From NCBI GenBank assembly GCA_002699025.1, contig PABA01000060.1:1-64000 (forward strand): 64,000 bases of DNA, written 5' to 3'. Origin of the DNA: Sandaracinus sp. (GTDB taxonomy: Bacteria > Myxococcota_A > Polyangia > Polyangiales > Houyiibacteriaceae). The notes under the pieces were generated by a model. The model had not been told where the DNA came from. It made no database searches and worked only from the letters and a program-made list of their open reading frames with translations. This document shows, piece by piece, positions 1-5,694 of this stretch. Positions within the stretch are counted from its first letter, which is position 1. The number at the start of each line of letters is the position of its first letter. The position numbers and the translations under genes were made by a program.

Positions 1-91
1 CCGCAGGACTCCCGGAGCGCGTCCGCAGGACGCCCCGAGCGCGCGTCCGCAGCACGCCCCGAGCGCGTTCGCTGGACTCCCCGGAGAGCGT
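1..91. repeat. imperfect ~23 bp tandem repeat at left edge
   Basis: About four imperfect copies of a 22-24 bp unit built on CCGCAGGACGCCCCGAGCGC lie at the extreme left of the window, before the 3' end of the DUF1343 gene. The copies differ by point changes and by one or two bases in length. No coding frame in it looks real. It may continue to the left of the window. Confidence 0.6.
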
Positions 92-126
92 ACGGGGCGG
101 ATGGATCCGCTCTCGGCGGACGAGGC

Positions 127-1289
127 TCAGTAGCGCAGCACGGCCTGGCGGGCCTCGGCGAAGCGGGCTGCGCCCTCCGCGTCCTTCGCCAGATAGGCCT
201 CGAGGTCGGCGCCGGCGTTCACCAGCTGCCGGTACTCGGGACCGCCGGTCAGGAGATCGATGGCGGGCCGGCTCGTCTCGTACTCGTACTCTTCGGTGCG
301 CCACGGAAACACGTCGTCCGGCCGCTGCTGGAGCGCCGCCGCGATCCACCGCAGGTACGCCTGGTAGCTCCGAAACCGCTCCCGGTCGCTCACGTGCACC
401 TGCACCCCGCCGCAGGTCGCCTTCGCGTGCTTCTGGAAGGTCGGCTCGAAGGCCAGCGGACGCAACGTCGCGCCCTCCACCTCGATCTCGGCCAGCTCGG
501 CCCCAGCGACGCCGGGCGCGCCCCAGATCTCGAAGGGCCGCGTCGTCCCCCGCCCCTCGCTCAGCGTCGTCCCCTCGATCACGCAGCCGCCCGGGTACAC
601 GGTCGCCGTGTCGAGCGTCGGCATGTTCGGCGAGGGCAACACCCAGGGCAGCCCGGTCTCGTCGAACCACATGCGCCGCTCCCAGCCGCGCAGCTCGACC
701 ACCCGCAGCGCCGCCTCGTCGATGCCCTCCCGGCACCGCACCCACTCGCACATCTCGCCGATCGTCAGCCCATGCCGCACGGCCACGTCGTAGAGCCCGA
801 CGAACGACCGGTACCCCGGCCGCTGTGGCATCCCCTCCACCACGGCCCCACCGATCGGGTTCGGCCGGTCGAGCACCACGGTCTCGACCCCGGCCTTCGC
901 CGCCACGCGCAGCATGAACGCCGCCGTCCACACGAAGGTGTAGTAGCGGCTCCCCACGTCCTGCAGGTCGACCACCACCGCGTCGAGCCCCTCGAGGTCG
1001 CTCGCCTTCGGGTGGAGCTCGGCCGCCGTCGACCCGTAGAGGCTCACCACCCGCAGCGCCGCCTCCGCGGAGCCCTCGACCCCGGCCATGTCCTGCGCCG
1101 TGCCGGCCCAGCCGTGCTCGGGCCCGAAGAGCACCCGGACCTCCGCCAGCTCCTGGAGCAGCGGCAGCGCGTGCCGAAGCCGCCGGTCCACGCTCGCCGG
1201 GTGCGCCAGGAGCCCGATGCGCTTGCCCGCGATCGCCTCCCGCACCCCGCCGTCGTCGGCGACGATCCGGTCGAGCCCGGTCGCGACGC

Positions 1290-1293
<4 letters not shown>
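127..1293 (-). CDS. DUF1343 / NamZ-like exo-beta-N-acetylmuramidase family protein
   Basis: The 388-residue protein has family hallmarks of DUF1343 (Pfam PF07075): an N-terminal [12 protein letters not shown] segment, FGPEHG near residue 55, [12 protein letters not shown] near residue 95, LDRPNPIGG and the SPNMPT block near residue 190. Characterised members (NamZ) release terminal MurNAc from peptidoglycan fragments, so a role in wall recycling is likely. No signal peptide is visible, so cytoplasmic action is inferred, unlike the secreted Bacillus enzyme. The chosen start is a GTG at 1293 that overlaps the pyrB stop (GTGA), so translation is probably coupled to the pyr genes. A longer frame upstream only shadows pyrB. 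Pairing a wall-recycling enzyme with pyrimidine genes could reflect supply of UDP-sugars, but that is speculation. Confidence 0.85.
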
Positions 1294-2239
<946 letters not shown>

Positions 2240-2243
<4 letters not shown>

Positions 2244-2767
2244 TCGATGATCGCGGCGTCCTCGTCGCTCGGCGCCCCGCCGATCTCCACGGCGACCTTG
2301 GCGCCGGCCGGCACCTCGACGGTCTTGCCGACGAAGTCCGCCGCGATCGGGAGCTCGCGTCCCCCCCGGTCGAGCAGCACCGCGAGCCAGACGCGGCGCG
2401 GGCGGCCGAAGTCCATCAGGCAGTCGATCGCCGCGCGGATCGTGCGCCCGGTCTGGAGCACGTCATCGACGAGGACGACGTCGCGGCCGTGGGGATCGAA
2501 GGGCACGACGCTCGGGCCGATCTTCGGGTCCGGCAGGGCGGTCGCCGCGTCGTCCCGGTAGAGGGCGATGTCCACGGTCCCGACGGGCACCTCGCGCCCC
2601 TCGGCCTCGCGAATCGCCGCCGCCAGCCGCTCGGAGAGGCCGACGCCGCCGCGCCGCACGCCCACGAGGGCCACGGACTCGGCGCCCCGCGTCGCCTCGA
2701 CGATCTCGGAGGCGATGCGACGAATGGCCCGGCCGACCGCGTCGGCGTCGAGGAGCACCTCGCTCAC
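2240..2767 (-). CDS. pyrR: bifunctional pyr regulator / uracil phosphoribosyltransferase
   Basis: The 175-residue type I phosphoribosyltransferase carries the PRPP motif [14 protein letters not shown] at about residues 96-109 and a VGVRRGG loop near residue 36, as in PyrR. In Bacillus, PyrR binds pyr leader RNA with UMP and causes attenuation; in mycobacteria it acts at the ribosome binding site. It also has uracil phosphoribosyltransferase activity. Here it opens the operon. The start is GTG at 2767, only 7 nt after a good -10 hexamer, so the message seems to have no leader. A second in-frame GTG three codons on is possible. Lack of leader RNA means classical attenuation in front of pyrR is unlikely; the RNA target, if any, must be elsewhere. 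Confidence 0.93.
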
Positions 2768-2774
2768 GCCGCCC

Positions 2775-2804
2775 GAGATACGCCGAACCGCCCCACCCCG
2801 TCAA
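2775..2804 (-). promoter_or_regulatory. sigma-70-type promoter of the pyrR operon
   Basis: On the minus strand TTGACG (2804-2799) is followed by an 18 bp spacer and TATCTC (2780-2775). The GTG of pyrR begins 7 nt after the -10, so transcription should start at or next to the first codon. Confidence 0.6.
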
Positions 2805-2894
2805 CGCGAGCGCGCGACCCCCCGCGAAGCGGATGGCTGGGAACCGCGACGAGTGGACTCCCCTGGAGTCTTCTTCAGCGCGAGGCCGAAGGGC

Positions 2895-3473
2895 TCAGCT
2901 CGGCTCGGGCATCTCGCCGGCGATCGGCCCGTTCGCCGGATCGCCGTGGGGCATCTCCTCGCCGGACTCGAGCCGCTCCTGCATCTCGTACTTCGAGGGG
3001 CAGCGCGGCACGAGCTCGCTCGCGAGGAAGGTCCCGTCGGCCTGCAGCTGACCCTGCACGGTCACGGAGATCCCGAAGTCGTCGCGGAAGGTGTCGGGCA
3101 CCACGCACTCGGGGAAGGTGACGGGCATCTCCGCGTCTTCCTTCTCGAGCACGAAGCGCCACTCGCAGGGGTCCTCCCGGAACTGGATCGACCCCTGCCG
3201 CAGATCGCCCTCCACGCGCAGGTTCCGCCCCTGGAACTGCTCCGGGGACTCCACCACCTGGTGGATGGGCGTCGAGTAGGCGAAGGCGTCGCCGGCGTCG
3301 CTGTTCAGCAGCAGGAAGACCACGCCGCCGACCAGCAGGCCGAGCACCAGCCCGATCTTCGCCCAGGGGGGGACGCCGCCGCTCCGCTCCTCGTCGTCCT
3401 CGATGGCCGTCGCCTCGCGCGGCTCGGGGGCCGGGGGCAGCTCGTCCTCGTACTCGTCGTCGCGGGCGCTCAC
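2895..3473 (-). CDS. ccmE: CcmE-type heme chaperone, cysteine variant
   Basis: The 192-residue protein has an acidic cytoplasmic N-terminus (1-35), one membrane helix (about 38-56) and a periplasmic OB-fold domain typical of CcmE, which carries heme from CcmC to the CcmF/H ligase during c-type cytochrome maturation. The usual HxxxY heme-attachment site is replaced by C158-P-S-K-Y162, the CxxxY form known from Desulfovibrio and some archaea. Two further cysteines (C103, C123) lie in the domain. I chose GTG at 3473 because the in-frame ATG at 3569 lies inside the terminator hairpin of the atp operon. No other ccm gene is adjacent. It sits 127 bp upstream of pyrR on the same strand. Confidence 0.85.
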   Translation of the reverse strand: MSARDDEYEDELPPAPEPREATAIEDDEERSGGVPPWAKIGLVLGLLVGGVVFLLLNSDAGDAFAYSTPIHQVVESPEQFQGRNLRVEGDLRQGSIQFREDPCEWRFVLEKEDAEMPVTFPECVVPDTFRDDFGISVTVQGQLQADGTFLASELVPRCPSKYEMQERLESGEEMPHGDPANGPIAGEMPEPS

Positions 3474-3542
3474 GAGACAATTATGTAGCGCCAATCGGCG
3501 CGGAGGGAAGCGCCCGAGAGCAAAACCCCCGCACGCGACGCC

Positions 3543-3587
3543 AAAAAAAGACGAACGCGGCGCCCCCATCTCGGGGACGCCGCGTTC
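3543..3587 (-). terminator. rho-independent terminator after atpE
   Basis: On the minus strand an almost perfect hairpin (arm GAACGCGGCG plus CCCC pairing with GGGG-A-CGCCGCGTTC, one bulged base) is followed by CG and seven consecutive U residues (3549-3543). It lies 51 bp beyond the atpE stop and isolates the Fo genes from ccmE. Confidence 0.85.
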
Positions 3588-3637
3588 AACGACCGTCGCG
3601 CGCGGCCGGTTCCGCGGACTATCCGCGGAGGGGCCGC

Positions 3638-3964
3638 TCAGCCGAGCGGACCAACCCAGCCCGCGGCGATGAGCAGCGCGTAGATGACCAGCGACTCGAT
3701 GAGCGCGAGGCTCAGGAGGAGCGGCGTCTGCAGCTTGTCGGCGGCGTTGGGGTTACGGGCGATGCCCTCGAGGGCGGCGGTCGCGGCGCGGCCCTGGCCG
3801 AGCGCGCCACCGAAGGCGGCGATGCCGATGGCGAGACCGGCGGCGATGGCCTTGAACATCGCGACGTCGTTCTCGTTCGAGGCGGCGACGTCCTGCGCGA
3901 AGGCGGTGCCGGCAACGAAGAGGGTGCCGAAGAAACCGAACGAGCGAAGAATCAGCTTTTTCAT
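3638..3964 (-). CDS. atpE: ATP synthase Fo subunit c
   Basis: The 108-residue proteolipid has two membrane hairpin helices preceded by a signal-peptide-like extension (residues 1-23, ending AFA), so it is longer than the usual 75-90 residues. The ion-carrying carboxylate is E90 in LALIESLVIY; the polar loop is R70-N71-P72. Q57, E90, S91 and Y95 have the same spacing as the sodium ligands Q32, E65, S66 and Y70 of the Ilyobacter tartaricus ring, although the Thr after Ser is Leu here. It is the last gene of the Fo operon and is followed by a terminator. The F1 genes are not in the window. Confidence 0.96.
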   Translation of the reverse strand: MKKLILRSFGFFGTLFVAGTAFAQDVAASNENDVAMFKAIAAGLAIGIAAFGGALGQGRAATAALEGIARNPNAADKLQTPLLLSLALIESLVIYALLIAAGWVGPLG

Positions 3965-4096
3965 GAGGGAGGCTCCTGAATGTGTCTCTCGGGGGTGTGC
4001 GCGACGGTCGGCGGCGGGTGACCCGCCTCGGTGAAAACCGTCGAAAACAGCGTGGGCGCGAGGCCCGGTTCGAGCGGGCCACGAGGGCCCGCGGAA

Positions 4097-4933
4097 TCAA
4101 TGGTGCTCGTGCTCCTCGATGGCGGCGCCGATGTAGACCATCGAGAGCAGGCAGAACACGAGGGTCTGCACGCTGACGACGATGATCCCGAGGAAGTAGA
4201 CGGCCACCGGGAAGGGCAGGAAGAAGGCGCTGGCCGAGAGGCCGAGGAAGGCGCCGAGCACGGCATGGTCGGCGAACATGTTCGCCGTGAGCCGGATGGA
4301 GAGCGTCACCGGGCGCACGATGTGCGAGATGACCTCGATGATGAAGATGAGCGGGGCGAGGAAGATGATCGGCCCCATGAAGTGCTTCAGGTAGTTGCCG
4401 ACGCCCTGCTTCTTGATGCCGTACACGTGCGTGGCGACGAAGATGATGATCGCCATCGCCGCGGTCGTGTTGAGGTTGTCGGTCGGCGGCAGGAAGCCGG
4501 GGAAGAGGCCGAGCGCGTTCGAGAAGAAGATCACGAAGGCGCAGGTCCCGATGAGCGGCAGGAAGTACTTCGCCGCCTCCTTGCCCATCACCGAGGACAT
4601 GAGGTTCAGCACCCCGCCGGTGAAGAGCTCGGTGAAGGTCGGGAGCGTGAGCCGGTCCTCCGGCACGATCGCCTGCTTGGTGTCGCCGAAGCGCGCCTTC
4701 GCCCGGAAGCCCACCCAGAGGAGGAGCAGGAGGACGAAGATGAAGCCCCAGATGTGGAGGACGTCGAAGCGGCCTCCGAAGAACCACTTCTCGTCCGGCG
4801 AGCCGCCGAGGCTCTCGGCGATCGGGGCGTTGATGCCGACCACCGCCTGGCGCAGGCCCTCGTGCAGGCTCTCCGGGAGGAGGCTGAACCAGGACCAGTG
4901 CTCGGGCAGGGCTTCGGCGTGCGTGTCCGCCAT
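4097..4933 (-). CDS. atpB: ATP synthase Fo subunit a
   Basis: The 278-residue integral membrane stator subunit forms the two ion half-channels next to the c-ring. The conserved helix with the essential arginine is visible as RPVTLSIRLTANMFADH (Arg in SIRL, about residue 237), and the last helices end in an EEHEHH tail. The periplasmic/cytoplasmic N-terminus is long, as in many Deltaproteobacteria-type sequences. The gene follows atpI at a 1 bp gap and precedes atpE by about 130 bp, a spacer with no recognisable gene. It completes the membrane sector with atpE; subunit b and F1 must be encoded elsewhere. Confidence 0.96.
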   Translation of the reverse strand: MADTHAEALPEHWSWFSLLPESLHEGLRQAVVGINAPIAESLGGSPDEKWFFGGRFDVLHIWGFIFVLLLLLWVGFRAKARFGDTKQAIVPEDRLTLPTFTELFTGGVLNLMSSVMGKEAAKYFLPLIGTCAFVIFFSNALGLFPGFLPPTDNLNTTAAMAIIIFVATHVYGIKKQGVGNYLKHFMGPIIFLAPLIFIIEVISHIVRPVTLSIRLTANMFADHAVLGAFLGLSASAFFLPFPVAVYFLGIIVVSVQTLVFCLLSMVYIGAAIEEHEHH

Positions 4934-4934
4934 C

Positions 4935-5324
4935 TCAGCTTTCCTCCGGCTGGGCGTCGTGGGGGGCGTTCTCGACCGGGCCCATGAGCTTGGGCCCGAC
5001 GAGCACGCCGAGCACCAGAGCGCCGATGCCGACCGTGAATCCGTCGAAAGAGAGCCCCCAGCGCGTGATCGCGATCCAGCAGAGCGTCATCACGCCGGCC
5101 GTCTTCATACCGGTCATCGCGAGGAACTGGCCGCGCGTCACCTTCCCGGCGGCCATGCCGCGGGAGAGGAAACGCATGATGGTCCAGTTCAGCACGGCGA
5201 CGCCGGCACCGGCCGCCGCGCCGAGGGCCGCGGCGCCGCCCCAGATCGCGTACGCCAGGCCCACGAGCAGGAGGCCCGTGGCGGCGGTCGCGAGGAGGAT
5301 GCGGTCGGTGAGCTGGGGGTTCAT
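4935..5324 (-). CDS. atpI: ATP synthase subunit I-like membrane protein
   Basis: The 129-residue protein has four predicted membrane helices (about 10-30, 36-54, 72-90, 96-112) and no signal peptide, matching the ATP synthase I chain family (PF03899). AtpI homologues help c-ring assembly or act with AtpZ in divalent cation handling. The start ATG at 5324 lies 10 bp after the atpZ stop, and the stop falls 1 bp before the atpB ATG. Longer upstream frames only shadow atpZ. Identification rests on size, topology and position rather than strong motifs. Confidence 0.75.
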   Translation of the reverse strand: MNPQLTDRILLATAATGLLLVGLAYAIWGGAAALGAAAGAGVAVLNWTIMRFLSRGMAAGKVTRGQFLAMTGMKTAGVMTLCWIAITRWGLSFDGFTVGIGALVLGVLVGPKLMGPVENAPHDAQPEES

Positions 5325-5334
5325 GGGGAAGGGA

Positions 5335-5694
5335 TCACTTCGTCGGGGACGTGTCGTCGCTCGCGATGCGCTCTCGCGCGGAGTGTGGGGTCGCGCCGGC
5401 GCCGCGAGAAGCAGCGTCGGTCTCGGTGCGATCACCGTCCGCGGGGTCGTCCGAGGTCGGCGAGGAGCGGGGCCGCGTGTACTTCCACAAGAGGTAGAAG
5501 CCCGCGAAGATCCCCCAGGCGACACCGATGCGCTCGAAGATGGGCGCCGTATCGAAGCGCCCGTCGAGCCACTGACCGCCCTTCACTCCGATCAGGAGGA
5601 AGACGGCCATCTCGATGCCGATTCCGCCGACCCGGCCGAGCGCGCGAACGGACTCGGTGCGGGGCGAGGACACGGTTACCTGACGAGGTGTCAA
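5335..5694 (-). CDS. atpZ: AtpZ-like (AtpI/ATPase gene 1 family) protein
   Basis: The 119-residue protein has two short membrane helices (about 27-45 and 56-74) separated by a GGQWLDGRF loop. This is the layout of the AtpZ / ATPase_gene1 family (PF09527) that opens atp operons and cooperates with AtpI. A hydrophilic, Ser/Thr/Asp-rich tail of about 45 residues follows. The start is uncertain: a TTG at 5694 gives the full length, whereas a GTG at 5673 would lose seven residues. It is the first gene after the promoter at 5730-5758. Confidence 0.7.
   Translation of the reverse strand: MTPRQVTVSSPRTESVRALGRVGGIGIEMAVFLLIGVKGGQWLDGRFDTAPIFERIGVAWGIFAGFYLLWKYTRPRSSPTSDDPADGDRTETDAASRGAGATPHSARERIASDDTSPTK

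Follow-up and report, generated by a model that had tools for sequence, protein, structure and literature searches.

The PyrR systems closest to the locus described here are of two kinds. In the Bacillus-type pyr operons (Bacillus and relatives, RNA family RF00515), PyrR acts by attenuation. In mycobacteria, PyrR acts on translation, and its loop is located in the 5' untranslated region. The window, that is the whole stretch of 64,000 nucleotides analysed here, comes from a Sandaracinus genome of the order Polyangiales and shares with the Bacillus type a PyrR homologue encoded in a pyrR-pyrB gene pair. However, it has no leader, terminator-like site or binding loop, and residues H140 and R146 of its PyrR are changed. 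With the mycobacterial system it shares a PyrR without a terminator-based switch. Unlike the nine actinobacterial loci with a strict loop, where the loop lies 78-88 nt upstream of pyrR in eight and 35 nt upstream in one, the loci of the window's order have none.

Leaderless genes form another point of comparison. The main text of Zheng et al. 2011 (PMC3160421) reports such genes in 8 of 33 delta-proteobacterial genomes, where they account for 15.8% of genes on average, and it contains neither of the words Myxococc- and Sorangium. The signal given there, TANNNT about 12 bp before the start codon, has a counterpart in the window genome, where a TA-like signal is found at the same distance; pyrR differs from it by a C in place of the last T of the -10 and by a good -35. 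We consider it likely that pyrR-pyrB is expressed as a leaderless message in a style that is widespread in this genome, that pyrC-carA is built in the same way, and that PyrR is most likely only an enzyme and not an attenuator.

The pyrR locus and its promoter

On the minus strand, the gene order is atpE (named by eye), a terminator-like hairpin, a ccmE-like gene, a gap of 127 bp, pyrR, pyrB and a NamZ-type gene. The pyrR gene (2240..2767) encodes 175 aa of the PyrR/uracil phosphoribosyltransferase family, and the protein scores above the cut-off of the curated PyrR model NF003549 (185.9 bits, cut-off 138), which makes it a member of the PyrR family. The listed frame of pyrB, the gene for aspartate carbamoyltransferase (1290..2243; NF002032, 405.7 bits, cut-off 263), overlaps the end of pyrR by four bases. 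Directly 3' of pyrB lies a co-directional gene for a NamZ-type exo-beta-N-acetylmuramidase (127..1290; Pfam NamZ_N and NamZ_C over cut-off), an odd partner in a pyrimidine operon; it sits inside a longer frame (127-1956) and its start is not fixed. Upstream of pyrR, the ccmE-like gene (2895..3472, start placed by eye) was recognised by Pfam CcmE (69 bits, cut-off 24.6), while the NCBIfam CcmE models stayed below their cut-offs. The hairpin that separates it from the atpE-looking gene (3588-3552) is strong, with 17 pairs and a T run.

The promoter elements that the first-pass annotation had proposed for pyrR are borne out by the sequence. A -35 element TTGACG (2804-2799) is followed, after a spacer of 18 nt (2798-2781), by the -10 element TATCTC (2780-2775), which ends 7 nt before the GTG start codon (2767-2765), all on the minus strand. 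By itself, the -10 is a poor match (3 of 6 positions, with C as the last), and a sigma-70 consensus scan over 1500-5500 returned no promoters and missed TTGACG/TATCTC as well. The match is nevertheless more than chance because the -35/-10 layout recurs in relatives. The GTG at 2767 is also a plausible start: in an alignment to five solved PyrRs the residue numbers differ by 1-3. The M. tuberculosis protein in entry 1w30 has 11 additional residues.

The distance between -10 and GTG agrees with that of leaderless genes, in which the -10 lies about 6 nt before the start codon. A sigma-70-type polymerase would start at or next to the G of the GTG, the predicted first or near-first transcribed base. 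Given the gap of 7 nt, the 5' end is possibly this G or a base 1-2 nt earlier, and leaderless therefore means a leader of at most about 3 nt. The pyrR-pyrB mRNA would most likely begin at the GTG or within about 3 nt of it and be translated as a leaderless message. Both this layout and its recurrence in relatives support the earlier proposal that the promoter leaves no room for a classical attenuation leader. Without a leader, PyrR cannot act via the classical anti-antiterminator. In line with this proposal, no terminator or antiterminator was found ahead of pyrR, and the four terminator-like sites of region 1500-5500 are all located outside 2768-2894.

The gap itself offers little structure. 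Rfam gave no matches in 2768-2894, and the fold of the 130 nt at 2768-2897 is less stable than those of shuffled copies (z = +1.82). After the ccmE stop, there is a perfect hairpin of 15 nt, GACTCCAGGGGAGTC (2870-2856, minus strand), with a 6-bp stem, a 3-nt loop and no T run. This hairpin could be part of a regulatory leader if pyrR were expressed mainly as a downstream gene of a ccmE-pyrR-pyrB transcript, with the 127-nt gap as its leader and TTGACG/TATCTC in a minor role. The ccmE-like gene is indeed co-directional and 127 bp upstream, read-through from it into a leadered pyrR mRNA is possible, and 16 of the 42 loci retrieved from the order contain a ccmE-like stretch, which in 8 of the 42 ends at most 150 nt from pyrR. 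However, the hairpin is confined to the window's own locus and is absent from the other 41 (at up to 300 nt from pyrR, the closest sequence elsewhere is that of L022, with 3 mismatches), and the fold of the gap and the lack of a terminator-like site in it argue against a leader as well. Among the 16 regions that fit the promoter layout (see below), a ccmE-like end lies within 150 nt in only 6 and is farther away or not in the locus in 10, counts that include some loci that are short at their ends, for example L028. Expression of pyrR mainly from a ccmE transcript is therefore regarded as unlikely.

Two sequences with some likeness to a PyrR loop were also discarded. The hairpin at 2870-2856 resembles the loop consensus in part, and it was rejected for its absence from the 41 other loci. 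A loop-like 14-mer inside the end of ccmE (2 mismatches) was taken as chance; it is not found at the matching place in L004 and L005, as judged by eye.

Recurrence of the layout at pyrR and pyrC in the order

We examined the region upstream of pyrR in all 42 of the 57 genomes of the order that had a match at E <= 1e-20, the window's included; removal of near-identical upstream regions left 28 non-redundant ones, the window's own among them. For pyrC, 54 genomes had a match and 50 were used (G029, G042, G047 and G056 were left out), giving 36 regions after near-copy removal. To count as having the layout, a region had to contain a hexamer starting in TTGAC (one mismatch tolerated), a second hexamer starting in TA after a spacer of 16-19 nt, and an in-frame ATG or GTG separated from the latter by 5-9 nt. 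Candidate starts were all in-frame ATG and GTG codons between 60 nt ahead of the aligned first residue and 6 nt past it, and the gap was counted to the nearest of them. Expected numbers were obtained from upstream DNA shuffled within 20-nt blocks, which does not keep dinucleotides.

The layout recurs in the order at both operons. It was found in 16 of 28 pyrR regions, against 0.25 expected, and in 25 of 36 pyrC regions, against 0.26 expected, with four pyrC rows that have no in-frame ATG or GTG counted as misses. When the window's own genome was left out, 15 of 27 and 24 of 35 regions fitted, respectively. The distance to the start is similarly constrained. Exact TTGAC/TA pairs were searched within 200 nt upstream of pyrR with the distance left free, and all 12 of them lie 6-9 nt from a candidate start (16 of 21 with one mismatch allowed); for pyrC, 21 of 25 exact pairs lie 6-9 nt before the nearest candidate start. 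In the window genome, the pyrC start reads TTGACT-N17-TAACCC-N7-ATG and carA sits after pyrC, so that a second pyr operon, pyrC-carA, would have the same leaderless build.

The remaining 12 of 28 pyrR and 11 of 36 pyrC regions do not fit. As for pyrR, these include i) genus g2, the most sampled one, whose regions carry TTGAA and lack a TA at the proper distance (rows L010, L018 and L025 were kept), and ii) L004, L023 and L121, which have a TA hexamer 6-7 nt before the pyrR start but two mismatches in the -35. Upstream of pyrR in L003, at about 1280-1340, we also noted a tandem repeat (gagctgagctgagct...).

The -10 itself departs from the TANNNT form: it is TATCTC in the window, and its last base is C in 15 of 19 pyrR regions; these 19, like the 25 pyrC regions examined with them, were preselected for a -35 with at most two mismatches. 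In some relatives, for example L017, L003 and L193, inverted repeats of 5-7 bp are centred on the TA of the -10. These repeats might be operators that bind a protein or respond to nucleotides, so that pyrR-pyrB and pyrC-carA would be controlled jointly from promoter and operator. Of the 44 pyrR and pyrC regions, 10 have an inverted repeat of at least 5 bp centred near the TA, where 4.1 would be expected (1 of 200 shuffles reached this number), and 5 have one of at least 6 bp, where 1.2 would be expected (0 of 200 shuffles). However, 34 of the 44 regions have no such repeat, the two sets taken separately are not significant (pyrR at 6 bp, 1 against 0.7; pyrC at 5 bp, 4 against 2.2), off-centre places gave 3, 4 and 5, and the scan of the centre was marginal. 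Moreover, the arms at pyrR and pyrC of the window genome reach at most 2 bp, and the count was made after examples had been noticed by eye, which makes it a lead and not a result. We therefore think joint control through such an operator quite unlikely.

A broader reading concerns the order as a whole. Both pyr operons might have dropped RNA-level control throughout the order, with PyrR reduced to a plain enzyme by the loss of its RNA-binding surface, and pyrR-pyrB and pyrC-carA might now share a leaderless promoter type that senses nucleotides at initiation. This promoter type would have a strong TTGAC, a -10 without the last T and, in some genomes, a short inverted repeat over the -10. In this order-wide form, the proposal appears rather unlikely to us.

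PyrR-binding loops and PyrR residues

The first-pass annotation had argued that a PyrR that still regulates RNA must bind inside coding sequences or elsewhere in the genome, and had called for a search of the other pyr genes. Nothing in the window reached the gathering score of RF00515, and at E <= 10 neither positions 1-4000 of the window nor the genome gave a match. The same kind of genome search gave matches in 9 of 14 control genomes, 2 of them over the cut-off. The model is narrow, as among 20 loci scanned the gathering score was reached only in Listeria (L054). A looser scan was made with what we take to be the loop consensus, with four stem pairs. It covered 120 loci with at least 100 nt upstream each (122 less L082, which has no upstream sequence, and L084, whose protein was truncated on extraction), a number that holds duplicates, several of L031-L036 being the same records as loci of the pyrR set. 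The four-pair loop was found at most 300 nt upstream of pyrR in 24 of the 120 loci (Nitrospirota, Chloroflexota, Actinomycetota and Listeria) and in 0 of the 42 loci of the order.

The search of the other pyr genes gave a similar outcome. In the window genome, no loop with all four pairs of the consensus was found in the ccmE-pyrR-pyrB stretch or at pyrC-carA, pyrD, pyrE, pyrF and upp. Matches with three of the four pairs were seen once in the carA locus, twice in the pyrD locus and once in the pyrF locus. In the 64-kb window, the four-pair pattern occurs five times on one strand and not at all on the other. The 12-base loop core was counted 108 times in 9.2 Mb and its reversed pattern 71 times; this 1.5-fold excess, in a genome rich in G+C, points to no gene in particular. 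With no full-stem loop, no RF00515 match and changed residues in the protein, the idea of PyrR binding elsewhere in the RNA is not supported.

As for the protein, its residues were compared with those that we take to be the RNA-binding positions of B. subtilis PyrR. R19, R141 and K152 are kept in the window's PyrR, while T18R, H22S, R27A, H140G and R146A are changed; its G136 and A142 stand at positions that have H and R/K in loop-bearing relatives. R19, H140, R141 and R/K146 are present in 24 of 24 of these relatives, and H22 in 22 of 24. In the order, by comparison, 38 of 42 proteins have Gly at 140, 38 of 42 have Ala at 146, and one of the 42 retains H22. A stretch of 12 residues, presumably the PRPP loop, is intact in the alignment. 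The strict loop was found in 0 of 51 loci with the G-R-A set and 0 of 37 mixed loci; the H-R-R/K set also occurs in eight loci that lack a strict loop, and four of these have a near-loop. Mapped on a tree of 91 rows with no more than 90% identity, the loop requires four changes and the residue set two. The link between loop and residues is thus at clade level, with about one independent contrast, and it was rejected as independent proof, being not statistically testable.

Since there is no leader and the residues that go with the loop in relatives are changed, we read PyrR as a uracil phosphoribosyltransferase only. This role is predicted, and part of the RNA-binding surface, most likely together with RNA binding itself, would have been lost. 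The pyr genes would then be controlled at transcription initiation or by enzyme feedback. A PyrR that still binds RNA in this order, through an undescribed type of loop and a different surface, seems very unlikely to us. It would agree with the retention of R19 (40 of 42) and R141 (42 of 42), with the Arg at position 18 (34 of 42), and with pyrR still adjoining pyrB in the window. Yet the pyr loci searched hold no full-stem loop of the known type, H140 and R/K146 are changed, and so is H22 in 41 of 42. The name that NF003549 gives to PyrR, 'pyr operon transcriptional regulator', is probably wrong for much of the order; promoter layout, absence of the loop and residue changes all point this way.

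PyrR was also considered as the sole uracil phosphoribosyltransferase of the window genome. This was rejected: a separate upp scores over its cut-off, and PyrR is therefore not the only candidate for this activity. In genus g2 (G001, G011, G016-G032), upp gave a match at E <= 1e-10 in 0 of 19 genomes, and PyrR is present in 17 of the 19. There, judging from these matches, PyrR may be the only such enzyme.

Leaderless-looking starts across the genome

In 461,886 bases of the window genome, 215 genes were called by a simple procedure, and their candidate ATG/GTG starts number 852. TANNNT was found 23 times at a gap of 6 nt and 42 times at gaps of 5-9 nt, against 0.70 per position at gaps of 12-51 nt. 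Counted by gene, TANNNT lies 5-9 nt before a candidate start in 42 of the 215 called genes, with about 3.5 expected in these 462 kb, so that about a fifth of the called genes look leaderless. TTGAC with at most one mismatch accompanies only 5 of these 42 starts; the pyr promoters are set apart by their good -35 and by a -10 without the last T. The initial view, which was limited to pyrR, held as to the leaderless layout, whereas the spread over the genome and the sharing with pyrC-carA go beyond it. For studies of leaderless translation beyond Actinobacteria and Deinococcus, this genome seems well suited.

Strict promoter patterns matched the genome at nine GTG-type and nine ATG-type places (one place belongs to both), against five and four for the reversed patterns, and the counts are thus only about twice those of the reversed patterns. 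The frames behind ten strict matches include pyrC and, each over its cut-off, lexA (start uncertain), ribF, hemL and an encapsulin-associated ferritin-like gene; of the others, two have matches below cut-off and three have none. A regulon specific to pyr genes was rejected, since the strict patterns also occur at lexA, ribF, hemL and the ferritin-like gene, and the promoter type is therefore general.

The other pyr genes of the window genome are more varied. No TA is found at the right place at pyrF, and pyrE comes after another gene. By eye, TAGAGC lies 7 nt upstream of the ATG of pyrD, where the -35 is poor, and TATGCT lies 9 nt upstream of the ATG of upp. On the minus strand of L129, genes that look bactofilin-like by eye precede pyrE, and the next gene beyond pyrE has a leaderless-looking start, with TATGCT 7 nt before the ATG.
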